The notes beneath the pieces were generated by a model. That model searched no databases, was not told the DNA's origin, and worked only from the letters and a program-made list of their open reading frames with translations. The translations under genes were made by a program, and so were the position numbers. Source: Carboxylicivirga marina (lineage in GTDB: Bacteria > Bacteroidota > Bacteroidia > Bacteroidales > Marinilabiliaceae). Taken from it: DNA of 64,000 nt. Positions 25,401 to 61,325 of this stretch are shown here, in pieces. Every line of letters starts with the position of its first letter. Within the stretch, counting starts at the first letter, position 1. The stretch lies in assembly GCF_016612505.1 (NCBI RefSeq), contig NZ_JAENRR010000003.1, positions 1 to 64,000 of the forward strand, in the 5' to 3' direction.

Positions 25401-25464
25401 GTACAAATTCGTAAAAAAACTGTACAATCAATTACAACAATAAATGGCACGCTCTTTAGTTTTG
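25401..25464 (+). promoter_or_regulatory. HTCS-type box and promoter for GH105 (copy 1 of 5)
   Basis: GTACAAATT (25401) and GTACAAT (25422) form a direct repeat with 21-bp spacing and an A-tract between. TAGTTTTG (25457-25464) matches TAnnTTTG, with its final G 42 bp after the second GTAC. Transcription would begin near 25470, which supports ATG 25490 over ATG 25469 as the start of the GH105 gene. Confidence 0.65.
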
Positions 25465-25489
25465 GAACATGTCTAAAGAGTTTAATTAT

Positions 25490-26743
25490 ATGAAGCCATT
25501 AAGTGTTGTTATACTTATAATTATTGCAGGTGCTGTGACGGTTGTTTGTTCTAATTATGACACACATTCTACATACTCACTCTCACAGGAACAAGTAAAA
25601 TCTATAACTCAAAAAGTTGCCGATAGACAAATTCTAGCTGTCGAAGACCTGTCTATTCAGCGAACCGCTTCAGGTATCCAACAAGAGAATGCCGAAATGT
25701 GGAGTAAGACTAACAATAATATGCCAGGTTTATATAACAAAAACAGGCATGAAATATCCTGGACCAATAGCGTTTTATATGCCGGTATGTATAGGTGGAG
25801 TGAGATTGCTGATGAACCGGGGAAATATAGAGAATGGCTTTTAAGCATAGGCGAAGAAAATGACTGGAAGCTAGGGGGGCGTTTATATCACGCCGAAGAT
25901 TACGCCATCGGGCAATTGTATACATCTCTGTATCAGGACTGTGGTAGTCAAGAAATGATATTTCCAACAATCAGCAACTTTGATTCCATATTAGTCAATC
26001 GAAAAACCGGTTCACTGGAGTGCGTTTCACTTGCTGAGGTTAAAGCCGGTAAAAACGAAACGGATTGTTATAACCGCTGGGGCTGGGCCGATGCATTATT
26101 TATGGCTCCTCCGGTATGGGCCAGATTGGCACGTATAACAGGTGAGAGGAAATACCTGGAGTTTATGGATGAAGAGTACCATGCTACCTATGATTTTCTT
26201 TATGATAAAAGTGAAAAGCTTTTTTTTCAGGATGCTTCTTATTTCTCTTTGAAAGAGAAAAATGGGCGGAAGATATTTGAGTCGAAAGGTAATGGTTTGA
26301 TTTTCGCAGGATTAGCCCTTGTGATTTCTGACTTGCCAAAAGACTGGCCCGGACGTCAGTTTTATGTTTCTTTATTTAAAAATATGGCCTACCAGCTTAA
26401 ACTCCTTCAGTGTGAGGATGGAACCTGGAGAAAGGGATTACTGGGAGATGTTGGTGATTATCCGAATATGGATATGGGGGGAACTGCTTTATTTACGCAT
26501 GGACTAGCATATGGTATCAATAATGAAATGTTGCCAAGAGCGGATTTTGAACCTGTTGTTTTTAAAGCCTGGGAAGCTTTAACACCTTGTGTGACTACTG
26601 AAGGTGTATTGGATTATAAGCAAACGATGGATGTAGGCATTGGCGATGATTACCCTGCTAAAGAAGAAGTGACTGATGTTGGTGCTTTTTTGGCGGCCGG
26701 GTCGGAAGTGTATAAGCTTGTAAAAAGGACGTACCATAATTAA
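25490..26743 (+). CDS. GH105 unsaturated uronyl hydrolase
   Basis: About 417 aa from ATG 25490, with a hydrophobic signal ending AVTVVCSN (possible lipoprotein). The (alpha/alpha)6 barrel of GH105 is indicated by RWGWADALFMAPPVWARL with the catalytic-region Asp, DGTWRKGLLGDVGDYPNMDMGGTA and the C-terminal EEVTDVGAFLAAGSEVYKL. It removes a 4,5-unsaturated uronic residue from the end of lyase products, feeding KduI/KduD encoded just upstream. First gene after an HTCS-type box. Confidence 0.9.
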   Translation: MKPLSVVILIIIAGAVTVVCSNYDTHSTYSLSQEQVKSITQKVADRQILAVEDLSIQRTASGIQQENAEMWSKTNNNMPGLYNKNRHEISWTNSVLYAGMYRWSEIADEPGKYREWLLSIGEENDWKLGGRLYHAEDYAIGQLYTSLYQDCGSQEMIFPTISNFDSILVNRKTGSLECVSLAEVKAGKNETDCYNRWGWADALFMAPPVWARLARITGERKYLEFMDEEYHATYDFLYDKSEKLFFQDASYFSLKEKNGRKIFESKGNGLIFAGLALVISDLPKDWPGRQFYVSLFKNMAYQLKLLQCEDGTWRKGLLGDVGDYPNMDMGGTALFTHGLAYGINNEMLPRADFEPVVFKAWEALTPCVTTEGVLDYKQTMDVGIGDDYPAKEEVTDVGAFLAAGSEVYKLVKRTYHN

Positions 26744-26813
26744 TAAGTACAAATCAACTACCCTATACTTTAATAATAAATTATTGTTAATCAACTAAAT
26801 AAATCATTTAATT

Positions 26814-27323
26814 ATGAAAACAAAAGTGCTGTTATTAATGCTTGTAACCCTTAGCTTATCTATCAATGCTGTTGCGCAAATTAAAAATGGTGATATGGAA
26901 AAAACCCGTAATACCAAATGGCCATGGAATTTGCATGTAAATAATGCCGGTACAGAAACACCAGGTGCAGCAACAATGAGCTACGAAGCTTATGATGCTC
27001 TTACAACCGGTCATTTTTTGCAAGTGGTGGTGACTGCGGCTAATACTGAGAAACCATGGAATTTGAGAGTGAAACAAGGAAATGTGGTTGTTGGTGCAAG
27101 TGATATCAAAATAACCTTTAAAGCAAGAGGTACTGTAGGAGGTGAGCTTTTGAGAATCAAATATGATGGAGATGGAAAGCCTCAAGCTGATTTTACCTTA
27201 ACCACAACCTGGGAAGAATATGAATTGGTTTTGCCTGCTACTTCTCAAGGCACAACAGGTACAATCTCATTATGGACAAAAAGTGTAGGTACATATCAGT
27301 TTGATGATGTGGTTTTAAAGTAA
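26814..27323 (+). CDS. Secreted CBM-like protein without sorting tail
   Basis: A 169-aa protein: signal peptide (ending INAVAQ) followed by a single beta-sandwich domain (IKNGDMEKTRNTKWPWNLHV start, GTYQFDDVVLK end) like CBM4/9/22-type modules. It stops right after the domain. The next gene encodes a close paralog that continues into a T9SS tail. It would be periplasmic or freely secreted (inference). No HTCS box was seen directly upstream, so it is probably cotranscribed with the GH105 gene. Confidence 0.7.
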   Translation: MKTKVLLLMLVTLSLSINAVAQIKNGDMEKTRNTKWPWNLHVNNAGTETPGAATMSYEAYDALTTGHFLQVVVTAANTEKPWNLRVKQGNVVVGASDIKITFKARGTVGGELLRIKYDGDGKPQADFTLTTTWEEYELVLPATSQGTTGTISLWTKSVGTYQFDDVVLK

Positions 27324-27430
27324 ATTAAAACCTTTATCGTGTTCTTTTTTAGCCATTAATTTAATCTGGCAATAGTAGAAAGGATGATGATTTGGCTTTA
27401 TTACGCTGGTTATTAATGTATTGACGTTAT

Positions 27431-27494
27431 GTATGAATTTGTAAAAAATACGTACGCATGTGAACAGGCACCAACAGTCTTTCTTCTACTTTTA
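27431..27494 (+). promoter_or_regulatory. HTCS-type box and promoter for the CBM-like gene (copy 2 of 5)
   Basis: GTATGAATTTGT (27431) and GTACGCAT (27452) lie 21 bp apart with an A-tract between. TACTTTTA (27487-27494) sits at the same -7 position as in the other copies. The second half-site is the least conserved of the five. Confidence 0.5.
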
Positions 27495-27533
27495 AATCAA
27501 TAAATTTTATTAAAAAACTAAATTCATTTTATT

Positions 27534-28298
27534 ATGAAAGCAAAACTACTTTTTATAATGCTTGTAAGCTTAGGGCTGTCTGTCAATACTATTGCACAAA
27601 TTAAAAATGGCGATATGGAAACTATCGGTAATCCAACCTGGCCCTGGAATTTAAGTGTAAATAATACTGCAACTACTACAACTCCAGGAGCAGCAACAAA
27701 AACCTACGAAGCTTATGATGCCCCGGCAACCGGTCATTTTCAGCAAGTGGTAGTGACCGCTGCTAATACTGATGAACCATGGAATTTGAGGCTTAAACAA
27801 AATAATGTGGCTGTTGGCGCAAGTGATACCAAAATTATCTTTAAAGCAAGAGGCACTGTGGGTGGAGAACTTTTGAAAATTAGGTGTAGTATAGATAATA
27901 CAAACAGATCACAGGCTGATTTTACCTTAACGACAACCTGGACAGAATATGAATTAATCCTTGATGAAATTTTGAAAGGTAAAGCAAATGAACTTTCATT
28001 CTGGACACAAAGTGTAGGTACATATCAATTTGATGATGTGGCTTTAAGTAGCACACCAACTGCCATATCAGACGATGTGATGGCTGGTGTAAAGGTTTGG
28101 TATATTGCCTCTGATAATACGCTTAACATCGATGGTATTACAGCTAATATGGTTAGTGTTTATTCATTGAGCGGTGCCAAGGTAGCTGAATACAGTGCAC
28201 CTGGTTTAGTGCTTACGTTAGGTAATATTCCTTCAGGGCTTTATGTGGTATCAGTTGCTACTGATGCCGGTACAAAAGTGGTGAAGATTAAAAAATAA
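27534..28298 (+). CDS. Secreted CBM-like protein with T9SS C-terminal tail
   Basis: A 254-aa paralog of the preceding gene: signal peptide (ending VNTIAQ), CBM-like domain (about 22-175) with the same opening IKNGDME and closing GTYQFDDVAL, then a type A T9SS domain (about 180-254; VSVYSLSGAKVAEY, PSGLYVVSV, TKVVKIKK). The two CBM domains are strongly similar at the nucleotide level, which points to tandem duplication. Likely surface-anchored glycan binding. It has its own HTCS-type box and its own terminator. Confidence 0.75.
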   Translation: MKAKLLFIMLVSLGLSVNTIAQIKNGDMETIGNPTWPWNLSVNNTATTTTPGAATKTYEAYDAPATGHFQQVVVTAANTDEPWNLRLKQNNVAVGASDTKIIFKARGTVGGELLKIRCSIDNTNRSQADFTLTTTWTEYELILDEILKGKANELSFWTQSVGTYQFDDVALSSTPTAISDDVMAGVKVWYIASDNTLNIDGITANMVSVYSLSGAKVAEYSAPGLVLTLGNIPSGLYVVSVATDAGTKVVKIKK

Positions 28299-28312
28299 TT
28301 AATTACACGTCC

Positions 28313-28353
28313 TTAAAAATCGTCTTTGAACATTGTTTAAAGACGATTTTTAA
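28313..28353 (+). terminator. Terminator after the second CBM-like gene
   Basis: A perfect 15-bp stem, TTAAAAATCGTCTTT (28313-28327) with AAAGACGATTTTTAA (28339-28353), and a short inner AAC/GTT pairing. The right arm provides the T-rich tail. Confidence 0.85.
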
Positions 28354-28402
28354 TATTTGGGTGCTTGTTTTATAGATTATTTCGCAAACAAAGTTAGTTA
28401 AT

Positions 28403-31357: not shown

Positions 31358-31394
31358 TACATCTTTTTCAATAATAAAACATAAATCTGATTTA

Positions 31395-31432
31395 TTGGAG
31401 GAATTACGCATTAAGTATGCTAATTCCTCCAA
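31395..31432 (+). terminator. Strong palindromic terminator after GH2
   Basis: TTGGAGGAATTA (31395-31406) pairs perfectly with TAATTCCTCCAA (31421-31432), and an inner GCAT/ATGC closes the loop. It is nearly symmetric, so it could act in both directions. There is no strong U-tract. Confidence 0.65.
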
Positions 31433-31617
31433 ATTGTATAACGAATTATAATTGCAGTGAACATATTTGTATATATTATTTCATATTACGTGTCAGATAC
31501 TGTTATCAATTATTTAATGTTCAATTGAAACCCAGTTAATGTAAAAAATAATTGATCTCATACTTAAATCAATTAATAGTAATTACTTTTGCTTTGTGCT
31601 TCTATGAATTAATTAGG

Positions 31618-34600
31618 ATGGTTAAGTCACTTCAAAAATATTTTCTGTTGTTTATTGGTGCTTTGGTTTTTCATTGCTCCAATGCTACTGTACGTTTTGA
31701 GCAACTTAATGTACTAAATCCATACGACGCACATAGTATAGAGGCCATTACGCAAGATTCTGTCGGAAACATATGGTTTGCTTTCTCCGGTGGGGTAAGC
31801 CGATACGATGGTAATTCTATTAAAAAGTTTTATTATCAAACCAATAATGAAGTAGGCTCTTCAAATATTGAAAGAATTCGACATCTCAAAGCACTGGGTA
31901 ACAAGCTTTGGATGAGGTCTAATTCAAATGTGTATGCCTTTGATTTGATGACAGAACAGTTTAAGGTATTTCATACGGGTCGTTCAGTTGATTTTGCCGG
32001 TCATCATTCTGATGTGTGGGTGGCTACTCCCACACGTATCTATAATCTTTTAAACGATCAACAATCAATACCAATAGAATTGTTACCCCGAGAACAAATA
32101 GCTAAAATGCAATTGTTCAATCATTTATTATATGTTGGTACTTCACAAAGGTTAGTTGTTTATAATTTAAATACCTACAAAGAAGAAGTACTATTGTCTG
32201 ATGTTGAGGTTTCGGCCATATTCGTAGATAGTCGTCAAACAATATGGCTGGTCGATACCAATCAGGGTGTGATTAAGACCCTAAGTAATGGCACAACTCA
32301 AAAATATACTAAAAATGACGGGATTCTTTCATATGATATTAGTTGCTTTGAGGAAGATAATGATGGAAGCATCTGGATGGGAGGCTTAAAGGGAATAAAT
32401 GAAATTGCATTGAGCGGCCAAATTAAGCAATTTCAATACCAGCGAAATAATGCGTGGGGTCCTTCTAATAATTCAGTTTTATCTTTATTTAAAGATAGAG
32501 ACGGAGGTATTTGGGCAGGAACTTATAACGGAGGCATCAATTACTTCAATCCAACTGATCACCTTTATTATTTATTTGAGGAAGATCTTACGGAAAACAG
32601 AGGGCTTAGCTATAAAGTGGTTAGTCAGATGAGTGAGGATACTATGGGGAATGTATGGATTTGTACCGAAGGTGGTTGGCTTAATTATCTGGATCGTCAA
32701 ACCAATCGTTTCATATACTACCCCCCACTTGTTTTAAACGATGGGACAATTATAAAAAATGTAAAATCTATTTATAAGGAGAATGATCAAAATTTATGGC
32801 TTGGTACTTTTAATGGAGGACTGGTAAAGCTTGATGTTGATAAACAATCCTATACCAGTTATGCCCGTCAGCAAAATGGACAATACCTGACAAGGGCTAA
32901 TCGAATTAACGATATAAAAGCATTTGATAAGAAATTGTATATGGCCACACATATGGCTGTTCAGGTATTTGATACCGAAACAGAGCAGTTAACTTACCTG
33001 TTCTCAGAACGAAACAAAAAGCAGCATAATATCTATAATTTTCTTAGGTGTATTGAGATTAAAGAAGGTGTGTTATGGACAGGTGGAAGTAACGGTTTAA
33101 TAAAATACGATCTTAATTCTAAAACCATAAAACGTTATTTTTATGATGAAAAGGCACAAGGCTCTTTAAGTTCAAATCAAGTTCATGACTTATTTGTGGA
33201 TAGTTATAATAACTTATGGGTTGCCACATCAAATGGCCTGAATAAATACAATCCTGAAGATGATAATTTTGAAGTGTTCGATAAGCAGGATGGTATGGAA
33301 AATGATTTTGTGGTAAGTATAGCAGAGTTAGAGCCAAATATACTTATTGTTGGCACGAAAATCGGCGTTTGCATTCTGGATTTCAAGAATAATGTTATTG
33401 AAAACATAGATAGATTTAACGGATTACCCATAAACGCACCGAACTTAACCAGCATTCTTGTTATGAATAATGATGATGTTTTTGTGGGTGGTATTGATGG
33501 TTTATGTGTTTTTAATTACAGAAGTGTTCTGGATTCAAAGGAAATAAATGCGCCACGACTTACTAAATTGTTGGTTAATAATAAGGAAGTGAACCCCAAT
33601 GATACAACAGGCATTTTAGAACAGTCTTTTATATTGACAGATGAAATTGTTCTTAACCACCAGCATACTTCATTTTCGATAGAGTTTCACGATAATCACT
33701 TTTTTACACATCAGCGTCAAAAGCTAAAATATAAACTGGAAGGTTTTGATAGCAATTGGTTAGAGTCAGCTAGCAATAGCGTTAATTATATGAATTTGAA
33801 TCCGGGTAAGTACACACTTTTTGTAGCCAATAGTAAAGAACCAAGCTTGTTTCGGAAACTTGACATTACCATAAAGCCTCATCCTTTGCAGAGCCCTGTG
33901 GCTTATATATTGTATGTTATCCTAATATTATTAATGATTTTGTATTACAATAGATTGCATCTTATCCGAAGGCGTTTGAAAGACAGTGTTCTGATAAAAG
34001 AACGGGAAAAAGCATATGAAGTTGAAATGAATCAATCTAAATTGCGTTTTTTTACCAATATATCTCACGAATTCAGAACGCCATTAACACTAATTGCAGG
34101 CCATGTGGAGGTTTTGTTATCAAGTAATTCTATCCGGCACAGCGATTATAAAAAGGTGTTAAGTATCAATCGAAATACTTCACGTTTAAATAACCTGATA
34201 ACTGAATTACTGGATTTTAGAAGGCAGGAAGCCGGACAGCTAAAACTAAAAGTAGGAGAGCATGACTTTATTACTTTCCTTGAGGAAATATTTTATTCTT
34301 TTATGGAGCTGGCAAAACATAAGAACATTGATTACCAAATTGATTATACACACAAGCCAATGCGTGTTTGGTTTGACAGTCTGCACCTTGAAAAGGTTTT
34401 TTATAATTTACTTTCCAACGCATTTAAGTTTACTCCCGATGGCGGACATGTTTTGATGAGTATTACAGAGGAGAGTGATGTTTTGGATATTAAAGTTGCA
34501 GATTCGGGTCGTGGTATACCGCATGATAGCCTGGAAACTATTTTTGATCGTTTCAATCAGTTAGACAATATGTCATCCGATGATATTAGGGGAAGTGGCA

Positions 34601-35574
34601 TAGGTTTGGCACTTACCAAAGGTATTGTTGAAGCACATCACGGTGAGATTAAGGTGTCTAGTTCGCTAAATAAGGGTTCAGTATTTACTGTTCGTATGCC
34701 TTTAGGAAAGGAACATTTTTCAGATGATCAGTTGTGTGAAACACAAGCTACTGATACCCTTATTAAAGAAGGTTCAATTGATGATGTTATTGAAGTGCCA
34801 ACGGAAGAAAAAGATAAAGAAAAGCTTTTAATTGTAGAAGATAATATAGAAGTGCAGGGACTTCTTTTCGACCTGCTTAATCCACTTTTCGAAGTAACAC
34901 TTGCAGCTAACGGTGTAGAGGGTTTGCAAAAGGCACTGGAACTTCAGCCTGTTATAATTGTGAGTGATGTACTGATGCCTCAAATGACCGGAACAGAGAT
35001 GTGCAGTAATCTCAAAACTAATGTGAATACCTCGCATATACCTATTATTTTACTAACAGCCAGAACAGCTGAAGAATATAAAATAGAGGGACTGGATACA
35101 GGTGCTGATGATTATATTACAAAGCCTTTTAATTCAAGAGTTCTAGTAGCTCGAATTAATAATATCATTAACAATCGCAAGGCTTTACAAGCCAGATTCT
35201 CCCAAAATCCATCTTTAAATGTAAAATCCATTGCAAAGAATAAAATTGATAAAGAATTTATTGAAAAAGCAAAAGAGGCTGTAGAGAATAATATTGATAA
35301 TGCTCAATATGATGTTGCTGCTCTTGGTAAGGACTTGCAGCTGGGGCGTACCGTCTTATATTCGAAAATGAAAGCCATAACCGGTAAAACACCCAATGCC
35401 TTCATTATGTCTTTCCGTCTTGAAAAAAGTAAGCAGTTGCTAATGGAGAATCCAGGAGAGGCAATATCTAAAATTGCATACGATTGTGGTTTTACTTCTC
35501 AGCAATATTTTAGTAAAATGTTTAAAGATCAGTTTGGTGTAACCCCTAAAAAATACATCAATAGTCATATTTAG
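31618..35574 (+). CDS. Hybrid two-component system regulator (HTCS)
   Basis: About 1318 aa from ATG 31618; a TTG at 31552 lies upstream and does not add a better signal. Order: signal peptide, periplasmic two-propeller sensor of reg_prop repeats (SVGNIWFAFSGGVSRYDG, DGSIWMGGLKGI, DGGIWAGTYNGGI and more), Y_Y_Y domain, membrane span (about 758-781), HisKA with HEFRTPLT (His about 817), HATPase (DSGRGIP, GSGIGLALTKGIV), receiver domain with DVLMPQMTG (Asp about 1117) and a C-terminal AraC-type HTH (about 1231-1318). It would sense an oligosaccharide in the periplasm and activate the polysaccharide genes. It is the only HTCS in the window, so it is the best candidate to bind the five 21-bp-spaced direct-repeat boxes. 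Confidence 0.96.
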   Translation: MVKSLQKYFLLFIGALVFHCSNATVRFEQLNVLNPYDAHSIEAITQDSVGNIWFAFSGGVSRYDGNSIKKFYYQTNNEVGSSNIERIRHLKALGNKLWMRSNSNVYAFDLMTEQFKVFHTGRSVDFAGHHSDVWVATPTRIYNLLNDQQSIPIELLPREQIAKMQLFNHLLYVGTSQRLVVYNLNTYKEEVLLSDVEVSAIFVDSRQTIWLVDTNQGVIKTLSNGTTQKYTKNDGILSYDISCFEEDNDGSIWMGGLKGINEIALSGQIKQFQYQRNNAWGPSNNSVLSLFKDRDGGIWAGTYNGGINYFNPTDHLYYLFEEDLTENRGLSYKVVSQMSEDTMGNVWICTEGGWLNYLDRQTNRFIYYPPLVLNDGTIIKNVKSIYKENDQNLWLGTFNGGLVKLDVDKQSYTSYARQQNGQYLTRANRINDIKAFDKKLYMATHMAVQVFDTETEQLTYLFSERNKKQHNIYNFLRCIEIKEGVLWTGGSNGLIKYDLNSKTIKRYFYDEKAQGSLSSNQVHDLFVDSYNNLWVATSNGLNKYNPEDDNFEVFDKQDGMENDFVVSIAELEPNILIVGTKIGVCILDFKNNVIENIDRFNGLPINAPNLTSILVMNNDDVFVGGIDGLCVFNYRSVLDSKEINAPRLTKLLVNNKEVNPNDTTGILEQSFILTDEIVLNHQHTSFSIEFHDNHFFTHQRQKLKYKLEGFDSNWLESASNSVNYMNLNPGKYTLFVANSKEPSLFRKLDITIKPHPLQSPVAYILYVILILLMILYYNRLHLIRRRLKDSVLIKEREKAYEVEMNQSKLRFFTNISHEFRTPLTLIAGHVEVLLSSNSIRHSDYKKVLSINRNTSRLNNLITELLDFRRQEAGQLKLKVGEHDFITFLEEIFYSFMELAKHKNIDYQIDYTHKPMRVWFDSLHLEKVFYNLLSNAFKFTPDGGHVLMSITEESDVLDIKVADSGRGIPHDSLETIFDRFNQLDNMSSDDIRGSGIGLALTKGIVEAHHGEIKVSSSLNKGSVFTVRMPLGKEHFSDDQLCETQATDTLIKEGSIDDVIEVPTEEKDKEKLLIVEDNIEVQGLLFDLLNPLFEVTLAANGVEGLQKALELQPVIIVSDVLMPQMTGTEMCSNLKTNVNTSHIPIILLTARTAEEYKIEGLDTGADDYITKPFNSRVLVARINNIINNRKALQARFSQNPSLNVKSIAKNKIDKEFIEKAKEAVENNIDNAQYDVAALGKDLQLGRTVLYSKMKAITGKTPNAFIMSFRLEKSKQLLMENPGEAISKIAYDCGFTSQQYFSKMFKDQFGVTPKKYINSHI

Positions 35575-35625
35575 TGTCTGTAAGAAAATACTTTTATTCT
35601 TAAGGTTTTGTAAGAAGGTCCAAAA

Positions 35626-35658
35626 CACAAGCCTGCCTGAGGGTAGGCAGGGCTTGTG
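35626..35658. terminator. Palindrome after the HTCS gene (terminator or REP-like element)
   Basis: CACAAGCCTGCCT (35626-35638) pairs with AGGCAGGGCTTGTG (35645-35658) with one bulge. It is GC-rich against an AT-rich background, and such palindromes recur in some Bacteroidetes genomes. The rest of the 338-bp gap holds an 8-2-8 palindrome TTAAATCA/TGATTTAA near 35816-35833 and otherwise nothing clear. Confidence 0.55.
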
Positions 35659-35912
35659 GAGCTTGAAAAAAAGTGTTTAACTTGTGTAAATGAGTATTTT
35701 CAGGCAAGCATAACGTAGTCGTTTGAGTTTTCTTGCGAAGACTATATAATAATGGATGATAATTACATTTTAGTCACTTGTATAAAATCATAAAAAAAGA
35801 GGATAATTCTTAAAATTAAATCATTTGATTTAACGCATTTTTGTGTTGCTCCTTTTGTGAGTTAAGGATTTGTGTACAATTATTTTATCCCTTTTTTAAT
35901 CATCTGTTATTT

Positions 35913-37868
35913 ATGTATACGATGAGACAAATATTATCAGTTAGCTTACTTTGTGTTATATTGTATTCCTGTCACAACAAAGATGAAAAACCAAATATCC
36001 TTTGGATCACCATCGAAGATACCTCTCCTCATTTTATGGCGAATTATGGCAATAGCATTAATACAACGCCAACGATGGATCAATTGGGTCAGGAAGGCGT
36101 TGTATTTACCAATGCTTTTGCACCGGGAGCGGTATGCTCTTCAAGCCGTAGTAGTATCATAACCGGTTGTTCAACTGAAGCACTGGGAACAGGTAACCAT
36201 CGCAGTAAATATAAGTTACCCGATTTTATCAAAGGATTCCCATATTACTTAAATGAAGCGGGTTATTTTACAACTAATAATGTAAAAACTGATTACAATG
36301 TACAAAATGAACAGGCCTTCATAAAGGAAGCCTGGCATGAAAACAGTCAAAAAGCAGGCTGGTGGAACCGGAAAGAAGGGCAGCCGTTCTTTTCGGTGTT
36401 TAACTACAATAGTTGTCATCAAAGCCGTACCATGACTTTCCCATGGGCCTTATATGAAAATGAAATATTAAAGCGTTTATCCGAATTTGACCATATTGCC
36501 GCTGAAGATATTGAGATGCCGCCTTTTTACCGGGATTCAGAAGAGATGAGAAAGCAGGTTTCGCGCGTTTACAATAGTCTGCGCAAGACGGACCATGAAG
36601 TTCAGTTACTTCTGGACCGGTTGGAGAAAGATGGGTTAAAAGAGAATACCATCATTTTTGTTTATGCTGATCACGGTCAGGGTATTCCGCGAGGCAAATG
36701 CACTTCTATAGGATTCGGCCATCGCGTTCCTTTTTATATTTGGTTTCCTGAAAAATATAAACATTTATCGCCATGGGGTGTGCAGGAGATTACGGATGAA
36801 CTCATCTCTTTTGAAGATTTGGCTCCAACAATATTAAGCCTGGCAGGCTGTGACATACCTGAATATATGAAAGGCAGGCCATTTATGGGATCAGAACGAA
36901 AAAAACCGGTACCTTATGTATTTGGTTCACGCAACCGATTAGATGACACACCTGGTTTGGAACGTACTGTTTTCTATGGACGATTTGTTTATTCCCGCAA
37001 CTTCTACCCGCATTTGCCGGTGCAGCGTTATCAAAAATATGCCGATGTGAGTGATATTGTAAGAACTATTCGAAAAGATGCGGCAGAAGGATTATTAAAT
37101 GAGGTCCAGTTTGATTTGGTCAAGCAACCAAGAGCAGTGGAATATTTGTTTGATCTTAAAAATGATAAGTGGGAGTTAAATAATCTGGCTGATCATTCAG
37201 ACTATCAGGAAGATTTGGAACGTTTAGGGAAAGTCGTTAGTGAGCGCATTGTTCAAGTTAAGGATATTCACTTCTTGCCGGAAGAATTAATGCTTGAAAG
37301 GTCTCAAAATTCAAGTGCTTACGAAGCACGCTTGCAAAGCAATAATTTACCTATTGCTGAAATTCTAGAAGTGGCAGATATGGTAGGGCGTGAAAAAAAA
37401 ACGCAATCTTTTCTGCCTTACCTGAAGGATGAAAGAGAAGAAATTCGCTACTGGGCAGCCGTAGGCTTAAACTTTATTGGTCAAACTAAAGGAATTGAGA
37501 AGCCCTTGAAAGATGCTTTACGAGACTCTTCATCATATGTGCAGGCAGAGATGGCTACCTTATTATATAAAACTGGCAAAAATACTGAGGCAAAGACAGT
37601 GTTAAACCAGCTTATTATCGGTGCTAATAAATATGCTTCACACCATGCTATGCAGCAGGTCTTATACCTACCTGAACTAGCAAATGATTTTAAAACGGAA
37701 TTTCAAAAAGTCAAAGACCGCTACGGTGAAAACAGAGTACCTGGTTTTGACTATAATGTTCAGAATTCAGTAGAGATGTTTTTCTATATATATGATAATC
37801 ATCCACTCTATTATTCGAGAGACAAGCGCTGGATAGATGATATAAGTAAAACGAAAAAATCATGGTAA
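35913..37868 (+). CDS. S1-family sulfatase with C-terminal HEAT-like repeats and atypical CSSSR motif
   Basis: About 651 aa from ATG 35913 (ATG 35922 is also possible; a more upstream ATG at 35841 gives a poor N-terminus). Lipoprotein signal (ILYSCHN). The sulfatase core has TIEDTSPH for metal binding and YADHGQGIPRGK. At the formylglycine site the motif reads C-S-S-S-R (Cys about 75), with Ser where Pro or Ala is usual. After the core, about 520-620, the sequence forms helical HEAT-like repeats (EIRYWAAVGLNFIGQ, YVQAEMATLLYKTG). Function is a predicted sulfate ester hydrolase; maturation at the atypical motif is uncertain. Confidence 0.87.
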   Translation: MYTMRQILSVSLLCVILYSCHNKDEKPNILWITIEDTSPHFMANYGNSINTTPTMDQLGQEGVVFTNAFAPGAVCSSSRSSIITGCSTEALGTGNHRSKYKLPDFIKGFPYYLNEAGYFTTNNVKTDYNVQNEQAFIKEAWHENSQKAGWWNRKEGQPFFSVFNYNSCHQSRTMTFPWALYENEILKRLSEFDHIAAEDIEMPPFYRDSEEMRKQVSRVYNSLRKTDHEVQLLLDRLEKDGLKENTIIFVYADHGQGIPRGKCTSIGFGHRVPFYIWFPEKYKHLSPWGVQEITDELISFEDLAPTILSLAGCDIPEYMKGRPFMGSERKKPVPYVFGSRNRLDDTPGLERTVFYGRFVYSRNFYPHLPVQRYQKYADVSDIVRTIRKDAAEGLLNEVQFDLVKQPRAVEYLFDLKNDKWELNNLADHSDYQEDLERLGKVVSERIVQVKDIHFLPEELMLERSQNSSAYEARLQSNNLPIAEILEVADMVGREKKTQSFLPYLKDEREEIRYWAAVGLNFIGQTKGIEKPLKDALRDSSSYVQAEMATLLYKTGKNTEAKTVLNQLIIGANKYASHHAMQQVLYLPELANDFKTEFQKVKDRYGENRVPGFDYNVQNSVEMFFYIYDNHPLYYSRDKRWIDDISKTKKSW

Positions 37869-39687: not shown

Positions 39688-39724
39688 AAGGGTTTGTAAC
39701 TATTATACAGTCGTTTTTTTAACC

Positions 39725-39788
39725 GTACGATTTTCTAAAAAAAACGTACAATGCTTTCTGATTTTGTATAGCGATTCCCCTTTCTTGC
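39725..39788 (+). promoter_or_regulatory. HTCS-type box and promoter of the ten-gene operon (copy 3 of 5)
   Basis: GTACGATTTTCT (39725) and GTACAATGCTTTCTGATTT (39746) are 21 bp apart, separated by an A-tract. A weak -7 (TTTCTTGC, 39781-39788) lies at the same distance as in the other copies. It drives GH105 and probably the nine genes behind it. Confidence 0.65.
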
Positions 39789-39870
39789 ATCTTATATCAA
39801 AGTCGATTTTTGATTTGGTTTATAGTCAAGAAGCGAATGTATAGTAAATGATAATTGATGTAAAATAGAA

Positions 39871-41019
39871 ATGAATATGAATAGTTGGCAAAAAATATCG
39901 GTGACCATTTTATTCCTTGCCTTGGGATGGGGAATATCCGCTCAGGAATCATTCGACCTGACTAAATGGCCTGAAGGTAAAACACCGGAACAGATAGGCA
40001 TGAGAATCGCCAATAAGTATCTCTCTTTACCGCATTCGCATTGGGGAAAGTATCGTAAGGCTGCGAATCGGATTACCTACCCTGATGTCTGCACATGGTT
40101 AGGAGGACTTTGGTTTGCCAAGGCAACACACAATGAGGATTTGCTCACCCGTCTCGAAGAACGTTTCCTGCCTCTGTATAGCGATGAGAAGCACTTGCTC
40201 CCCACGCCTGATCATGTTGATAACAATGTATTTGGTGCAGTGCCTTTAGAGCTGTACCTGCAGGGAAAAGGAAAACCCTATTTAGAGCTTGGCCTTTATT
40301 ATGCCGACAGCCAGTGGGAAGTGCCGGCAGATGTTAAACCAGAGCAAAAGGATTATGCCGACAAAGGATATTCCTGGCAAACCAGAATTTGGATTGATGA
40401 CATGTTCATGATCACCGCAGTGCAGACACAAGCTTACCGTGCTTCAGGTGATCGAACGTATATCGACCGTGCAGCCAAAGAGATGGTTTTGTATCTGGAC
40501 GAAATCCAATTGAAAAATGGTTTGTTCCATCATTCGCCGGATGCCCCCTTTGCCTGGGGAAGGGGTAATGGATGGATGGCCGTAGGCATGGCTGAATTGT
40601 TGAGAGCCCTGCCGGATGACCATCCGCACAAGGCGCGTATTATGCAAGGTTACCTCAAAATGATGGCTACTTTGCTTACTTATCAGGCAGAAGATGGCAT
40701 GTGGCGTCAACTTATTGATGACACAGATTCTTGGAAGGAAACATCTGGAACTGCCATGTTTACTTATGCTTTAATCAGAGGTGTAAAGAACGGATGGCTT
40801 GATGAGAAAAGCTATAGTATCGCCGCCCGTAAGGGGTGGCTGGCCTTAACGGCTTATTTAAACGACGAAGATAAGCTTACAGAAGTGTGTGGTGGTACGA
40901 ATATCGGTTTCGATCGGACTCATTATATGAACAGGCCAAGGATTGAAGGCGACCTGCATGGACAAGCTCCTTTTTTGTGGTGTGCGGCCGCACTGCTTGG
41001 GACAAATGTTAACTTTTAA
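39871..41019 (+). CDS. GH105 unsaturated uronyl hydrolase, secreted
   Basis: A 382-aa protein (ATG 39871 or 39877) with a signal peptide ending GWGISAQ. GH105/GH88-type alpha-barrel motifs: TRIWIDDMFMITAVQTQAYR with the catalytic-region Asp, FAWGRGNGWMAVGMAELL and TSGTAMFTYALIRGV. It differs clearly from the GH105 at 25490, so the two probably take different unsaturated uronides or linkages (inference). First gene of the HTCS-box operon and 11 bp before the beta-propeller gene. Confidence 0.92.
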   Translation: MNMNSWQKISVTILFLALGWGISAQESFDLTKWPEGKTPEQIGMRIANKYLSLPHSHWGKYRKAANRITYPDVCTWLGGLWFAKATHNEDLLTRLEERFLPLYSDEKHLLPTPDHVDNNVFGAVPLELYLQGKGKPYLELGLYYADSQWEVPADVKPEQKDYADKGYSWQTRIWIDDMFMITAVQTQAYRASGDRTYIDRAAKEMVLYLDEIQLKNGLFHHSPDAPFAWGRGNGWMAVGMAELLRALPDDHPHKARIMQGYLKMMATLLTYQAEDGMWRQLIDDTDSWKETSGTAMFTYALIRGVKNGWLDEKSYSIAARKGWLALTAYLNDEDKLTEVCGGTNIGFDRTHYMNRPRIEGDLHGQAPFLWCAAALLGTNVNF

Positions 41020-48187: not shown

Positions 48188-48200
48188 AAATTACAAAGGC

Positions 48201-49654: not shown

Positions 49655-49661
49655 TTGAAAG

Positions 49662-51287: not shown

Positions 51288-51317
51288 TACTATTAGAAAA
51301 TAGTAAATAGACTCAAA

Positions 51318-52721: not shown

Positions 52722-52744
52722 TTATTACCTTAATTAATAATCTA

Positions 52745-54250
52745 ATGGGTTTTCATAAAAGGATATTGATTGTACTACTAATTTTAATGTCACACGCTTT
52801 TACAGTTGTTTTAGGTCAAATAATCTTGCCATCCGATTATGAAACATTTAAGCCGCCTGTTGCAGGTGAATGGTTCACCGACCCGGTCTTCGGTACACAA
52901 ATCAAGCGGCTGACTGATACCCAGAGTGTTTTTGGATTCAATGGTGAGCGAGCCATGTTCAGTTCAGACGATCAATACTTTGTTATCGCAGTCGATCTCC
53001 CTGCTCCCAAGAGGCTTCATTTGTTCGATGGCCGAACCGGTGATTTAATCCGCATACTACCAAACTTCGTATCGGATCGTACAATCGTTCGCTGGGCTTA
53101 TGATCCGGAGGTGCTGGTGTATGCAGAGGGAAACAAATTAATGGGTTTTAACGTCGTGACCGATGCAACAACCACCCTGGGCACCTTTTCTGAACCGATC
53201 GGCGACGCAACGGGTAAGTTGTGTGGTGGTGACGGCAATGACTTTGACGACACCGGAGAATGGTTACTGTTGAACAAGGGCCCTCAGGATGCAAATGGGC
53301 TGCCTGGTGAAATGTTTGCCTATAACATACGCACCGGCGAAACAGGTCCGGTAAAGGACATGTCAAGCTACTTATTAGACTATTGTACCATAAGTCCTAG
53401 TGGGCAGTATATTGTGGGAACCTCTTTTGACCCAGCCGCTGCAACACCAGGAGTGGGTAAAAAATGGATATGGAACCGGGACTGGACGAATGAACGAGAA
53501 ATCACGAAAAGTGATGGCTCAAGAATTGGGAACGCGCACATGGATCTGGCGTATCAGGACGGTACGGACGAGGAGTGCCTGGTCACTAAACTTAGTGGAG
53601 GCATTTGGGCTATTCGCTTTTCGGATCTGAAGCAATTTAATATCCTTGCTGCGAGTGAGCTGAGCGTCATTATGTACAGTGCAGTAGGAGGGTCGAGCCG
53701 AAACCATATTTTTCTTGCCGTGGAGTCCAAAGGGCTCGATCCAAATGTAGAGTGGTTTCCCTACTTAGGAGAACTTGTACAGGTGCCACTGGTCACAACG
53801 GGAACGGGTGCGATTAGCCGGGTGGCCCATCATAGGGCGCGTACCCAAGACGGTTCTTTCCATTATTTCGCCGATCAACCAGAACCTTGGATTAATCACG
53901 CCGGTGACCGCCTCTTCTTTCGCAGCAACATGGATAATTATACCGAACCAGGTAAGAACGACCTGTACATGATTGAAATTAATAAACCGCCCCTGGGTAC
54001 TAATGATGAAATTCAAAAAAATAATGAGATACAGGTCTATCCAAATCCTATCAATGACTTTGTGTACGTGTCATTATCTAGTCGAGCTACTCAATATCAA
54101 TACCAAATATTCAACTTATCCGGAGAGGTGGTGCAAGAAGGACTCCTTGATAGTAATAAAATAAATGGTTCTTCTCTCCGCTCGGGCGTATATGTTTTAA
54201 ATATTCTCTCACAAAGTGAAAGCTACAGTATAAAGGTCGTTAAGAATTAA
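52745..54250 (+). CDS. Uncharacterised beta-propeller protein with T9SS tail
   Basis: A 501-aa paralog of the lipoprotein at 41031: signal peptide (ending VVLGQ) then the same blade series (YETFKPPVAGEWFTDPVFGT, ERAMFSSDDQYFVIA, LCGGDGNDFDDTGEWLLL, ISPSGQYIVG, AHMDLAYQDGTDEECLV, EPWINHAGDRLFFRSNMDN). It ends with a type A T9SS sorting domain (about 420-501; IQVYPNPINDFVYVSLS, GVYVLNI, SIKVVKN). So this copy should be at the cell surface while the paralog is lipid-anchored. Catalytic role is not proven; candidate lyase or glycan binder. Confidence 0.72.
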   Translation: MGFHKRILIVLLILMSHAFTVVLGQIILPSDYETFKPPVAGEWFTDPVFGTQIKRLTDTQSVFGFNGERAMFSSDDQYFVIAVDLPAPKRLHLFDGRTGDLIRILPNFVSDRTIVRWAYDPEVLVYAEGNKLMGFNVVTDATTTLGTFSEPIGDATGKLCGGDGNDFDDTGEWLLLNKGPQDANGLPGEMFAYNIRTGETGPVKDMSSYLLDYCTISPSGQYIVGTSFDPAAATPGVGKKWIWNRDWTNEREITKSDGSRIGNAHMDLAYQDGTDEECLVTKLSGGIWAIRFSDLKQFNILAASELSVIMYSAVGGSSRNHIFLAVESKGLDPNVEWFPYLGELVQVPLVTTGTGAISRVAHHRARTQDGSFHYFADQPEPWINHAGDRLFFRSNMDNYTEPGKNDLYMIEINKPPLGTNDEIQKNNEIQVYPNPINDFVYVSLSSRATQYQYQIFNLSGEVVQEGLLDSNKINGSSLRSGVYVLNILSQSESYSIKVVKN

Positions 54251-54284
54251 TTGGAAGGTTTTTCCATTGAAATATTAGAATATT

Positions 54285-56822: not shown

Positions 56823-56849
56823 AAGGAAGTTTCAGTATTTATTGAATAG

Positions 56850-56880
56850 CAGCTTGCATGATGATGCAAGCTGTTTTTTT
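56850..56880 (+). terminator. Terminator after the T9SS double beta-helix gene
   Basis: CAGCTTGCAT (56850-56859) pairs perfectly with ATGCAAGCTG (56864-56873) around GATG, followed by seven Ts. The following HTCS-type box begins four bases later. Confidence 0.92.
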
Positions 56881-56883
56881 AAC

Positions 56884-56948
56884 GGATAATTTTCAAAAAA
56901 AAACGTACAATTCTTTCTGATTTCGTGAAGATATTCACCTTACTTTCG
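56884..56948 (+). promoter_or_regulatory. HTCS-type box and promoter (copy 4 of 5)
   Basis: GGATAATTTTCA (56884) and GTACAATTCTTTCTGATTT (56905) are 21 bp apart with an A-tract between. TACTTTCG (56941-56948) is a near match to TAnnTTTG at the expected position. It lies directly after a terminator, so it marks a new transcript for the second double beta-helix gene. Confidence 0.65.
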
Positions 56949-57034
56949 ACTTATTAAAATGTCTTTTTTTTGATTCGTTTGAAACGAATAAATGTATTAT
57001 TGAAAACAATAATTTTAAAATAATTGAAAAAATC

Positions 57035-59290
57035 ATGAAATCTATAAAACAGGCACTAAAAGCAGTTAGTTCTATCCTTTTTCTAAGTATAGTAGTGCAA
57101 TTGGCAAATGCGCAAACTGTTGAGCATCGTACCACCACTACAACTGTTTCTGAATTTAACAGTCGATTAAAACAATATGCACAGATTAACCCCGATAAAA
57201 CACACAAAGGAGTTATTGATGTAACCTGCCAACCATACAACGCCAAGGGCGATGGTATTAATGATGACACTCAGGCCATTCAGGATGCCATTGACGATGC
57301 CTACCCAAATAGTTTTATGGTATACCTGCCAGCCGGAAAAACCTTTTTAGTATCGAAACAGCTTAAATTGATAGCATCATTGGAAACGCGTCAATACGGA
57401 CATCAATTCATTGGGGCTGAAAAAGGTAAAAAACCGGTAATTCGCTTAAAAGATGGAAGCACAATTGATGACAATATATTGGTATTTTTTCAATTGAATA
57501 GTCCCACAAAAGGCAAAGCCCCGGCCAGTCATTATGGATTTACGTTTAGAAACATAAATGTTGATTTGGGAAACAATCCCGAAGCCATTGGTATTATGGC
57601 AGCAGGAGCGCAGCAATGTGTTCTTGAGAATACAAAAATATACGGAAAAGCATTTAAAGCAGGAATTAAAGATTTACCAGGCTCAGGCGGTGGTTGTGTG
57701 AATATACATATTGTGGGTGGCGATATTGGTATCGACCAGAATCAGCACCGTGCCAACCCTACCATTGAAGGCTTGATTCTTGAAGGACAAAAAGAATATG
57801 GTATAAAAATTAAAAATGTAAGAGGGCCATTGGTATTAGCCGGGTTTAAAATAACAGCGCCCCAAGATGCCTCTGCCAATTACAGAGCAATACATCTTAA
57901 TAATACTTATGGTGACATTAAGGAATCAGGAGCACTTCATCATGCTATTGCGGATATGTGTCTTACAGATGGAAGTATTGAAGTGCCGGGAGAAGGAGGT
58001 ATTGCCATCTCAAACGGCTCACAGGATGTAACCCTTGTGAATGTATACATAAAAGCCGACAAACTGATCGAGAGCGGCGTAACTACAGCTCCATACTCGT
58101 ATATCGCAGGGGATAATAGCAAGTGGAAGAAAATCACTAAATACATGTTTACCTCAAAATTGGATAAAGCATCGGTGGTAGTTAATGGGAAAGAGTTGAG
58201 CGACAGAACAAAGAATTATGAATATTCGGAAAAAGTAATCGACAAAGATCCAAAGGAAGACATTTACAGCAAACACTCGTATGGTGAAATGCCCGATTTT
58301 AACGACCCGAATATAGTGGATATTGTAGCATACGGAGCAACTCGTGCCAACGAAAATGCTGATGATAACGATGCCATTGCCATTCAGAAAGCACTTGACG
58401 ATGTTTCAAACCCAAAGAGCAAGAACTACGGTAAAACAGTTTTAATTCCTCGCGGTAATTTCGATTTGGGGCAAGCTCTTTTTGTAAAAAAAGGAACTAA
58501 ACTTATTGGTACAGCTAAAAGTAGTTCGAAACTGGTGGCAAAAACAGCATGGGACTATAAGGATGGAGCCATTATTAATACAGCCGACGATGCCGAAGGA
58601 AACATTATTCTCAGCGATTTTACAATCATGGGGCATCCTCGTATGTGCTATCTGCGTGTGCAAAGTGCAAATACAATAGTACGTGATATAGTTACCGAAG
58701 ATAAACGCCGATATGGCTGGCCACAAGCCGACAACTGGAAGAAAAACAAAAAGAAAGGCGCTGCATACATCGAATTCTGTAAAAATGCAGGAGGTAAGGT
58801 ATATCATATTTCAGCAGACCATATTGCGCTTGACGATCGTTACCGTTCCAATGTTCCTGTTTCTGGCTATCATATTGTAGATGTAAACAATACAACCAAT
58901 CCTCTAACATTCTACCAGCTTAGTGTTGAGCATCACCCGCACTCACCATCTATTATGATTAAAAATGCGAAGAATACCACAATATTTGGTATGAAATACG
59001 AAGGTCCGGCAGAGCATCTCAATATAGTTGATTCCGAAAATATACAAGTAATTGGAGGCTCGGGTAATTATTATATGGATAGAGAATACGACCGTGCAAT
59101 AGTTGTAATTAGCAACTCAAAAGATATTGTATTGCGCAATTTAACGCGTAAGAGCAAAAGTGGTAAACTGTTTAATAGAACTGTAAAAGATATTACTAAA
59201 TACTGGATTGTGGATTCAGAAACTAAAGTAACAGGCGATTATTCGGTTCTATGGTATGAAAATGGAGTTTTGGACAGGCCGAATCGGTGA
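57035..59290 (+). CDS. Double beta-helix (pectate-lyase-3-like) protein without sorting tail
   Basis: A 751-aa paralog of the upstream 845-aa protein: signal peptide (ending LANAQ) and the same two helix units (GDGINDDTQAIQDAIDDAY near 65; NADDNDAIAIQKALDDV near 450). It stops where the paralog enters the T9SS tail. High conservation between the paralogs is concentrated in NIHIVGGDIGI/GSGGG and the second half (PRMCYLRVQS, SVEHH, GNYYMDRE), a good place to look for catalytic residues. Without the tail it is probably periplasmic (inference). It may share a transcript with the sulfatase 259 bp downstream; a weak hairpin (AGTGTT/AACACT) lies in between. Confidence 0.75.
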   Translation: MKSIKQALKAVSSILFLSIVVQLANAQTVEHRTTTTTVSEFNSRLKQYAQINPDKTHKGVIDVTCQPYNAKGDGINDDTQAIQDAIDDAYPNSFMVYLPAGKTFLVSKQLKLIASLETRQYGHQFIGAEKGKKPVIRLKDGSTIDDNILVFFQLNSPTKGKAPASHYGFTFRNINVDLGNNPEAIGIMAAGAQQCVLENTKIYGKAFKAGIKDLPGSGGGCVNIHIVGGDIGIDQNQHRANPTIEGLILEGQKEYGIKIKNVRGPLVLAGFKITAPQDASANYRAIHLNNTYGDIKESGALHHAIADMCLTDGSIEVPGEGGIAISNGSQDVTLVNVYIKADKLIESGVTTAPYSYIAGDNSKWKKITKYMFTSKLDKASVVVNGKELSDRTKNYEYSEKVIDKDPKEDIYSKHSYGEMPDFNDPNIVDIVAYGATRANENADDNDAIAIQKALDDVSNPKSKNYGKTVLIPRGNFDLGQALFVKKGTKLIGTAKSSSKLVAKTAWDYKDGAIINTADDAEGNIILSDFTIMGHPRMCYLRVQSANTIVRDIVTEDKRRYGWPQADNWKKNKKKGAAYIEFCKNAGGKVYHISADHIALDDRYRSNVPVSGYHIVDVNNTTNPLTFYQLSVEHHPHSPSIMIKNAKNTTIFGMKYEGPAEHLNIVDSENIQVIGGSGNYYMDREYDRAIVVISNSKDIVLRNLTRKSKSGKLFNRTVKDITKYWIVDSETKVTGDYSVLWYENGVLDRPNR

Positions 59291-59549
59291 GGAATTATAA
59301 AGTAAAAAAATGATAAGCTTTGCAAAGGCTGGAATCGAGAGAGCATCGAGCCAGTGTTTTTCGGATTGAAGAACACTTCCAATGAATTATTAGGATGCTG
59401 AGAAGTAAATGTATTGAAGTTACTATTTAACCTTCCTAACAAGAAAAGCCACGATTGAAGGATAGTAAGTTTATAAAATAACTAATGACGAGTTGCTTAG
59501 TGTTTTATAAAGCATCAGTTGGCTATGATATGTATAATAAATTAAAGTA

Positions 59550-60971
59550 ATGAAAAAATTGAGTGTATTGAAAACGATTTATTTCAGCTTGGCTGTTTTG
59601 CTATTTTCCTGTAGCAGTAAAACTGGAAATAAGGATGGTGTTCAAAAGCCTGCTCAACCAAATATTGTTATTCTTTTGGCTGATGATATGGGCTATGGTG
59701 AATTAGGCTGTTACGGGCAGGAAGTCATCAAAACACCTAACATTGATAAAATGGCCAGTGAAGGCATGCGTTTTACACAATTTTATGCCGGAAGTTCTGT
59801 TTGTGCTCCTTCGAGAGGTGTATTAATGACGGGGATTCAGGTAGGGAAGTTAAATGTACGTGGTAATTATGGTCATGTTGAGGATGGAAACTGGGGGCGT
59901 GTGGCACTTAAAAAGTCAGAACTTACAATCGGCGAAATGCTGAAGGGTGCAGGTTACCAAACCGCTTTTATAGGAAAATGGCACTTAGGCATACCGCAGG
60001 ATGTAAACACATGGGCAGCCGGGCGCGGTTTTGATTATGCCATCCAGGAACAATGGGGTGAGAAGGCCGAGGGCGGAAAGTTTGAAGTGAACGACCATTG
60101 GATCAATGGTAGGGACAGCGTTATTCATTATGATTGGAAGCAGTATGATTGCAAGGATGTTTTCCGAACCAATCTGGCTATCGACTTTCTCGACAAAAAT
60201 CGTGATACGCAAAAACCTTTATTCCTGGTGATGTCGTATCGTACCCCGCACGCCCATGAACCGGATTTAAGGGAAGCAGAACGCTATAAGGAATTTGGCT
60301 GGCCTGAAATTGAGCGACGCCATGCCTCACGTATAAGCATGCTGGATGAGCAGGTTCAACGATTGCTTGATAAAATGGATGCAATGGGTGAATTGGATAA
60401 TACCCTGGTGATTTTCACCAGTGATAATGGTCCCCAAGCTGAAAAAAAACACAGCGATCTGTTCTTTAAAAGCTCCGGTGGGCTAAAAGGAAAAAAGAGA
60501 GATATGTACGAAGGAGGTGTTCGCGTACCAATGATAGCCTGGTGGAAAGGTAAAATTCAAGGAGGTACCACTTCTGATCATGCAGGGATTTTCTACGACA
60601 TCATGCCAACCCTGGCAGAAGCAGCAGGAATAGAAGCTCCTGAGCAAACAGATGGCATCTCTTTCTTACCCGAGTTAATGAATAAAACTCAAAAAGAACA
60701 CGAGCACCTATATTGGGAATTACAGGTAGGATCAACGCCAAATGGCTACAGGCAGGCTCTGCGCAAAGACCAATGGAAAGTGGTACGTTACAAGCAAAGT
60801 GGTAAGCCCGAACTCTATAATGTTGAGGAGGATTTGTATGAGGAGTCCGACCAGGCTCAGAAGCGTACTGAGTTGTTAATGGAAATGGATGACTTAATGA
60901 AGAGTCAGAGTGAGGCCAATTCACATTGGCCATTTTCGGGGAATAGGATGAAACGAACATGTAAATTTTAA
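59550..60971 (+). CDS. S1-family arylsulfatase-like sulfatase, lipoprotein
   Basis: A 473-aa sulfatase with lipoprotein signal (LLFSCSSK). Arylsulfatase A-type motifs: LLADDMGYGELGCYG, formylglycine motif CAPSR (Cys about 85), IGKWHLG, SDNGPQAEKK and GGLKGKKRDMYEGGVRVP. Its last codons (MKRTCKF and stop) lie inside intergenic repeat copy 4, so the natural C-terminus has probably been replaced by the repeat. Confidence 0.93.
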   Translation: MKKLSVLKTIYFSLAVLLFSCSSKTGNKDGVQKPAQPNIVILLADDMGYGELGCYGQEVIKTPNIDKMASEGMRFTQFYAGSSVCAPSRGVLMTGIQVGKLNVRGNYGHVEDGNWGRVALKKSELTIGEMLKGAGYQTAFIGKWHLGIPQDVNTWAAGRGFDYAIQEQWGEKAEGGKFEVNDHWINGRDSVIHYDWKQYDCKDVFRTNLAIDFLDKNRDTQKPLFLVMSYRTPHAHEPDLREAERYKEFGWPEIERRHASRISMLDEQVQRLLDKMDAMGELDNTLVIFTSDNGPQAEKKHSDLFFKSSGGLKGKKRDMYEGGVRVPMIAWWKGKIQGGTTSDHAGIFYDIMPTLAEAAGIEAPEQTDGISFLPELMNKTQKEHEHLYWELQVGSTPNGYRQALRKDQWKVVRYKQSGKPELYNVEEDLYEESDQAQKRTELLMEMDDLMKSQSEANSHWPFSGNRMKRTCKF

Positions 60972-61048
60972 TCTTAAAAATTACACACAGGGTAATGATT
61001 AAAATTTCTTGAGAGTTCCATGTGACAACTGAAAGAAAGTTTAAACAT
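60948..61048 (+). repeat. Intergenic repeat unit, copy 4 (101 bp), overlapping a sulfatase 3' end
   Basis: ATGAAACGAACATG at the left overlaps the sulfatase gene; inside are ACACACAGGGTAATGATT and GAGAGTTCCATGTG; it ends TTTAAACAT before copy 5. Confidence 0.72.
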
Positions 61049-61159
61049 ATGAAACGAGCTATGCGGATAGATTCTCACACAGGAGCATGATTAATTTTGG
61101 CGAGTTCCATCCCGAAAAATCGGGACAAGTAGTGGCAATAAAAAACAAAATATAATCAT
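61049..61159 (+). repeat. Intergenic repeat unit, copy 5 (111 bp), with an inserted hairpin
   Basis: ATGAAACGAGCTATG at the left, TCACACAGGAGCATGATT and GAGTTCCAT inside, ending TATAATCAT. Compared with copy 2 it carries about 22 extra bases in the CCATATGG site, including the perfect hairpin TCCCGA/TCGGGA (61110-61125). No gene start follows; ATGAAATAG stops at once. The rest of the gap up to the HTCS-type box holds only a weak AAACCT/AGGTTT hairpin (61198-61217). Confidence 0.72.
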
Positions 61160-61260
61160 ATGAAATAGGTGATGCTGACATACGAAATATGCATAAGAAA
61201 CCTATATAATAAGGTTTAGCATATGGATTTGAAGGGTAAATGATGGTCTGGTTTTTAAAC

Positions 61261-61325
61261 GGATAAATTTCTAAAAAAAGCGTACAATCCTTTCTGAATT
61301 TATACATCTATTACCCTTTTTTTGC
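61261..61325 (+). promoter_or_regulatory. HTCS-type box and promoter of susC (copy 5 of 5)
   Basis: GGATAAATTTCT (61261) and GTACAATCCTTTCTGAATT (61282) are 21 bp apart with an A-tract between. A weak -7 (TTTTTTGC) ends at 61325, in register with the other copies. The susC ATG is about 140 bp further on. Confidence 0.65.

Follow-up and report, generated by a model that had tools for sequence, protein, structure and literature searches.

Which regulator acts on the genes of a polysaccharide utilization locus (PUL), and at which sequences, is the question raised by a stretch of 64,000 nucleotides of Carboxylicivirga marina (contig NZ_JAENRR010000003.1), which as a whole is called the window below; positions marked C140 follow the contig numbering and include DNA past the window. 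In a sequence-only reading of this DNA, five boxes with two half-sites 21 bp apart had been proposed to be the operator of the hybrid two-component system regulator (HTCS) encoded at 31618 and to define its regulon. Judged from the sequence, the boxes are very probably operators of this HTCS. The prediction is supported by the restriction of the boxes to the PUL, by the HTCS being the sole AraC-type regulator among the proteins scanned, and by similar pairs next to its homologs, but the regulon is larger than the one listed before.

Paired half-sites upstream of the genes of one PUL

The five boxes were found with half-sites starting at 25401/25422, 27431/27452, 39725/39746, 56884/56905, and 61261/61282. 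As had been claimed, an A-tract between the half-sites and a proximal GTAC were present in each of them; the proximal half read GTACAAT in four boxes, the exception being the box at 27431 with GTACGCA. The distal half-site of these five boxes consisted of GTAC, GTAT, or GGAT, two further bases, and ATT or TTT. A 30-base matrix of the five boxes led to three further ones at 26709 (17.8 bits), 35779 (17.1 bits), and C140:66404 (16.3 bits), for which the five-box matrix represents a true hold-out. All eight boxes lie upstream of genes of one PUL:

Box 1, 25400..25429, + strand: GTACAAATT..GTACAATC, upstream of the GH105 gene at 25469
Box 2, 26709..26738, + strand: GTATAAGCT..GTACCATA, within the 3' end of the first GH105 gene and upstream of the open reading frame (ORF) at 26814; missed by the sequence-only reading
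Box 3, 27430..27459, + strand: GTATGAATT..GTACGCAT, upstream of the ORF at 27534 and a GH2 gene
Box 4, 35779..35808, + strand: GTATAAAAT..GGATAATT, upstream of the sulfatase gene listed from 35841; likewise missed
Box 5, 39724..39753, + strand: GTACGATTT..GTACAATG, upstream of the gene run starting with the GH105 gene at 39871
Box 6, 56883..56912, + strand: GGATAATTT..GTACAATT, upstream of the beta-helix gene at 57035
Box 7, 61260..61289, + strand: GGATAAATT..GTACAATC, upstream of susC at 61466
Box 8, C140:66404, past the window: precedes a further sulfatase gene after susD; likewise missed

In all eight boxes, two half-sites of the same orientation were 21 bp apart, forming a head-to-tail pair with a half-site consensus of about GKAYRAWTT. 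As GTAT and GGAT occurred in distal halves, and GGAT (box 4) and GGAC (box 8) in proximal halves, the half-site variants seem to be exchangeable between the two positions.

In leave-one-out scans of both strands of the window with the 30-base matrix, only the four training boxes scored higher than the one left out, whichever of the five this was. With the five-box matrix, other positions of the window reached at most 8.9 bits, except for the reverse strand of the 39725 box with 15.3 bits. When the leave-one-out procedure was applied to all eight boxes, every left-out box exceeded every non-box position among approximately 200,000 strand positions in the 100 kb examined. Scored with a matrix that included themselves, the eight boxes reached 29.5 to 39.9 bits, compared to 9.5 bits for the next position on the plus strand of C140:25001-76000.

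A search of the genome for the paired motif had been named as a check in the sequence-only reading, and its outcome agreed with the proposal. Strict patterns matched solely at boxes of this PUL, one pattern at two places and another at three. A degenerate 29-base pattern with at most 2 mismatches matched at nine places in the 5.65-Mb genome, seven of which were boxes 1 to 7, all on the plus strand. This pattern was written after the additional boxes had been seen, with the A-tract shortened to admit the box at 26709, and it tests the restriction to the PUL and not the discovery of the boxes. Reversed-pattern controls matched at 0 and 3 places in the genome, and the two degenerate matches outside the PUL are no more than this control. 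The boxes are thus confined to this PUL.

The boxes were also found at a nearly constant distance from a putative promoter element. A TAnnTTTG-like element, scored against the -7 consensus that PMC7366714 gives for the primary sigma factor of Bacteroidetes, ended 39 bp past the four letters of the proximal half in six boxes and 40 bp past them in one (56884). At the offset of 39 bp, six of six -7 letters matched in one box, five of six in four boxes, and four of six at 26709. Averaged over the eight boxes, the score at this offset was 4.6 of 6, whereas the average of all offsets was 2.1; when the eight stretches were placed at random 5,000 times, no placement was as good at any offset. The distance of 41 to 43 bp after the second GTAC given before is correct if counted from the first base (42 to 43 bp); at 39725, the match is poor. 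With an offset of 39 to 40 bp in seven of the eight boxes, the predicted -7 elements would place the proximal half near -33. The elements assigned to individual boxes, and a hairpin in front of box 6, are as follows:

25457..25464, + strand: -7-like element of box 1, TAGTTTTG, 39 bp after the proximal GTAC, 6 of 6 letters
26766..26773, + strand: -7-like element of box 2, TACTTTAA, 39 bp, 4 of 6; an equal match ends at 37 bp
27487..27494, + strand: -7-like element of box 3, TACTTTTA, 39 bp, 5 of 6
35836..35843, + strand: -7-like element of box 4, CATTTTTG, 39 bp, 5 of 6
56941..56948, + strand: -7-like element of box 6, TACTTTCG, 40 bp, 5 of 6
61317..61324, + strand: -7-like element of box 7, TTTTTTTG, 39 bp, 5 of 6
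56848..56875, + strand: intrinsic-terminator-like hairpin with 12 pairs, after the previous gene and directly before box 6

Because of the terminator-like hairpin directly before it, box 6 probably opens a new transcription unit; in the same hairpin scan, no terminator was found before box 5. In the case of box 4, the listed TTG start of the sulfatase gene (35841) overlaps the predicted -7 element. Translation probably begins instead at either of two ATGs, near 35913 or 35922, which gives a lipoprotein-like signal peptide.

The HTCS and its homologs in related genomes

The HTCS gene was confirmed, position 31618 being an in-frame ATG within an ORF that starts with TTG at 31552:

31552..35574, + strand: hybrid two-component regulator with Reg_prop sensor, Y_Y_Y, HisKA, HATPase_c, Response_reg, and HTH_18 domains; likely start ATG 31618

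All of these domains were found in one chain above the Pfam cut-offs. The receiver contains a SHIP motif (TSHIPIILL in the translation; judged on the receiver alone, apart from the D and K partners that the DNA-binding domain would supply). According to passages of PMC11253607, receivers with an S/CHIP motif are the majority class, and the motif is linked with keeping the DNA-binding domain inhibited before phosphorylation. The domain scan covered 40 proteins from window position 10861 to C140:76286; the HTCS was the sole AraC-type or hybrid regulator among them, and a single LacI-type regulator was present, encoded at 14232.

A nine-base half-site matrix derived from this PUL alone was run on 74 segments upstream or downstream of 37 homologs of the HTCS. 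The homologs were 32 to 42% identical to it, L046 and L047 being matched solely from residue 207 on; L037 (a near copy of L036), L021 (cut by the contig end), and four matches without a locus were left out. We counted pairs with spacings of 12 to 35 bp that were followed by a -7-like element (5 of 6 letters) at 37 to 41 bp, a condition added after counts of the best spacing had been unclear. At a threshold of 9, 13 segments had such a pair with a spacing of 21 bp and seven had one with 22 bp, whereas each of the 22 other spacings was represented by 0 to 2 segments; at a threshold of 13, there were five at 21 bp, five at 22 bp, and none elsewhere. The 20 segments with a pair and a -7-like element belong to 17 of the 37 homologs and to at least four families (f1, f41, f60, f64), and their counts are not independent, as several of the genomes are close kin. 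The peak was less sharp when the -7 condition was omitted: pairs at 21 and 22 bp, found in 17 and 12 segments, still came first, but spacings of 31 and 35 bp followed closely with 11 and 10 segments (threshold 9). The single best spacing per segment, also without this condition, was 31 bp in nine, 21 bp in five, and 22 bp in four cases upstream of 38 homologs, and 21 and 22 bp in five cases each and 25 bp in three cases downstream. A GGATNAATA-like element located about 10 bp past the proximal half in the homologs seems to account for the 31-bp peak.

A half-site pair was present upstream of the HTCS gene itself in 13 of the 37 homologs, suggesting that these HTCS genes may be autoregulated. 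At L032-L036, L038-L041, and L048, a 21-bp repeat of the type TGTACAATT..TGAACTATT was observed upstream of the HTCS genes, followed about 38 bp on by a TTCCTTTG-like element, and at several of these loci the GGATNAATA-like element stood about 10 bp after the proximal half. The boxes of relatives used for some of the offsets were picked by eye, so that those offsets are descriptive.

The strict box (at most 3 mismatches) was absent from the 70 other genomes of the family, and a tblastn comparison of 22 PUL proteins with 20 stretches surrounding 11 HTCS homologs (matches above 150 bits shown) did not reveal the same PUL there. The matches obtained there concerned only the HTCS, susC, and sulfatases, with 28 to 54% identity over the aligned part. 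A contig search for related loci gave only three remote matches (Ohessyouella, Cohnella, Anaerosacchariphilus), which were not used.

Several of the results weigh against the assignment of the boxes to this HTCS. No ortholog with more than 42% identity was found in the 71 genomes of the family or the 393 genomes of the order that were searched, and the boxes can therefore not be footprinted across orthologous promoters. The matrix recognized no box upstream of the HTCS gene itself, compared to the pair upstream of 13 homologous genes; the missing box fits the statement in the consulted part of PMC6874557 that such regulators are typically expressed constitutively at low levels. Box 8 is weak, since its 16.3 bits are equaled by matches in L002 (16.4 bits) and L046 (17.8 bits), which are presumably due to chance, and it is the weakest claim of the set. 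In the case of box 5, the best -7 match comprised three of six letters (at 38 or 39 bp, none being good at 37 to 41 bp), and several boxes had equally good -7 matches farther downstream, e.g., at 53 bp. In the homologs, the -7 offset was not sharply distinct from some others: for pairs with a 21-bp spacing (threshold 11), eight matches fell at 35 to 39 bp, seven at 55 to 59 bp, and five at 20 to 24 bp.

Alternative explanations and a possible mechanism

The boxes could instead serve as operators for a different AraC-type or HTCS protein whose gene lies outside the PUL, with the HTCS of the PUL binding something else. Cross-regulation between PULs is known in general, and the DNA-binding domain of the HTCS has 17 other AraC-type matches in this genome (E <= 1e-10). 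However, none of these 17 domains is more than 41% identical to it, the motif is no commoner outside the PUL than the reversed control, and pairs similar to the boxes flank homologs of this very HTCS. Moreover, the pair test used on the homologs was applied to the 500 bp following each of 11 further long regulators of this genome, which were considered to be HTCSs solely from the length of their reading frames. At a threshold of 9, it gave one pair at 22 bp and one at 12 bp, but none at 21 bp. We consider control by another regulator improbable.

Even less probable, in our judgment, is a core-promoter or upstream A-tract feature that serves RNA polymerase alone and became common through promoter duplication. 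A general feature of promoters would recur throughout the genome, which the pattern does not, although the A-tract at every box and the -7-like element at seven of eight would suit such a feature. The extended sequence GTACAATNCTTTCTGA common to boxes 5 to 7 suggests common descent of these three, but the other five boxes are alike in little except the half-sites, the A-tract, and the -7-like element. A similarity arising by chance and picked by eye was also considered, given that GTAC is a palindrome and that A-tracts are frequent. A GTAC pair with a 21-bp spacing does occur at 31690 inside the HTCS gene, and it was rejected as a chance match because the rest of the box is absent. For the boxes themselves, chance is hardly credible in view of the leave-one-out recovery, the restriction within the genome, and the spacing peak in the homologs.

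We favor the HTCS encoded at 31618 as the protein for which the boxes are operators. On this reading, a mechanism can be proposed in which binding, phosphorylation, and activation are taken by analogy from the HTCS family. A periplasmic oligosaccharide, the presumed ligand, would be sensed, the receiver would become phosphorylated, and the DNA-binding domain would be released. The two half-sites 21 bp, or two helix turns, apart would hold the two AraC-type DNA-binding domains of a putative HTCS dimer. With about 39 bp from the end of the proximal half to the end of the predicted -7 element, the proximal domain would be placed next to RNA polymerase, at the -33 region or close to it, and transcription from start sites predicted downstream would be activated in the manner of a class II AraC-type activator. 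The regulon would be the PUL, controlled through boxes 1 to 7 within the window and through box 8 past it.

Gene content of the PUL and relation to known operators

Of the genes said to follow the five original boxes, those at 25469 and 39871 matched Glyco_hydro_88 in Pfam, which takes in GH105, the GH105 label being that of the sequence-only reading. The gene at 57035 was of the beta-helix type and that at 61466 of the TonB-dependent susC type, as described, whereas the ORF at 27534, called similar to a carbohydrate-binding module, had no Pfam match. The PUL comprises two GH105-type genes, genes for GH28, GH2, GH3, and beta-helix proteins, susC, and susD, as well as seven sulfatase genes in its window part and one after susD. 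This set of genes suggests that the substrate may be a sulfated polymer containing uronic acid.

A cluster for uronate catabolism is located beside the PUL (14232-25202 of the window), with genes for the LacI-type regulator (14232), UxaC, altronate dehydratase, a mannitol-type dehydrogenase, a PfkB kinase, KDPG aldolase, a transporter of the major facilitator superfamily, KduI, and an SDR protein. The matrix found no HTCS boxes at these catabolic genes (15-25 kb), and the cluster is possibly controlled by the LacI-type regulator. In the stretch L001:8302-11755, corresponding to C140:68302-71755, the last boxed sulfatase gene is followed by a transposase gene, and the next sulfatase gene appears to be split over three reading frames of 175, 265, and 173 amino acids.

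AraC binds direct-repeat half-sites at araI1-I2 that are about 21 bp apart, the proximal one adjoining the -35 region, and the boxes of the PUL resemble this site in the spacing of their direct repeats. AraC binds its soluble sugar directly, whereas an HTCS is a membrane-bound phosphorelay. For HTCSs of Bacteroides thetaiotaomicron, Ravcheev et al. 2013 (PMC3878776) predicted direct-repeat motifs with, on average, 21 bp between the tandem sites, one of them consisting of 12-bp sites with a 9-bp spacer, and reported that related HTCSs have related motifs. The boxes share with these operators the direct repeat, the spacing of about 21 bp, and the position in front of operons belonging to the same PUL as the HTCS gene. 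They differ from them in organism and PUL, and the likeness concerns spacing and placement. According to passages of PMC11253607, fragments of the response regulators of BT4124 and BT4663 bind promoters of susC homologs in gel shifts. These proteins resemble our case in being HTCSs with an AraC-type HTH_18 output that act at a susC-homolog promoter, and the SHIP motif described in that paper is present in our HTCS. Their binding was demonstrated by gel shift, whereas here we infer it. The operator arrangement of HTCSs is thus already described in gut Bacteroides, and the boxes are a further case of it. A fixed distance to the -7 element is not stated in section 8 of PMC3878776 or in the passages of PMC11253607, which is weak evidence that the promoter geometry is undescribed in the literature.

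More tentatively, HTCS operators across the order might share one rigid geometry, i.e., a GKACRATT-like pair with a spacing of 21 or 22 bp whose end precedes that of the -7 element by about 38 to 40 bp. The main source of specificity for a PUL would then be the second helix-turn-helix, which would read the bases on the downstream side of the common half-site, and HTCS regulons could be deduced from the sequence alone by a rule of spacing plus offset. We regard this generalization as possible but rather doubtful.

For C. marina, the analysis provides a testable predicted regulon with eight operators and one likely cognate regulator, which has no close HTCS ortholog among the relatives searched. 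The results suggest that the operator spacing of HTCSs, and perhaps the promoter offset, may be general enough to predict regulons where the motif is uncharacterised.

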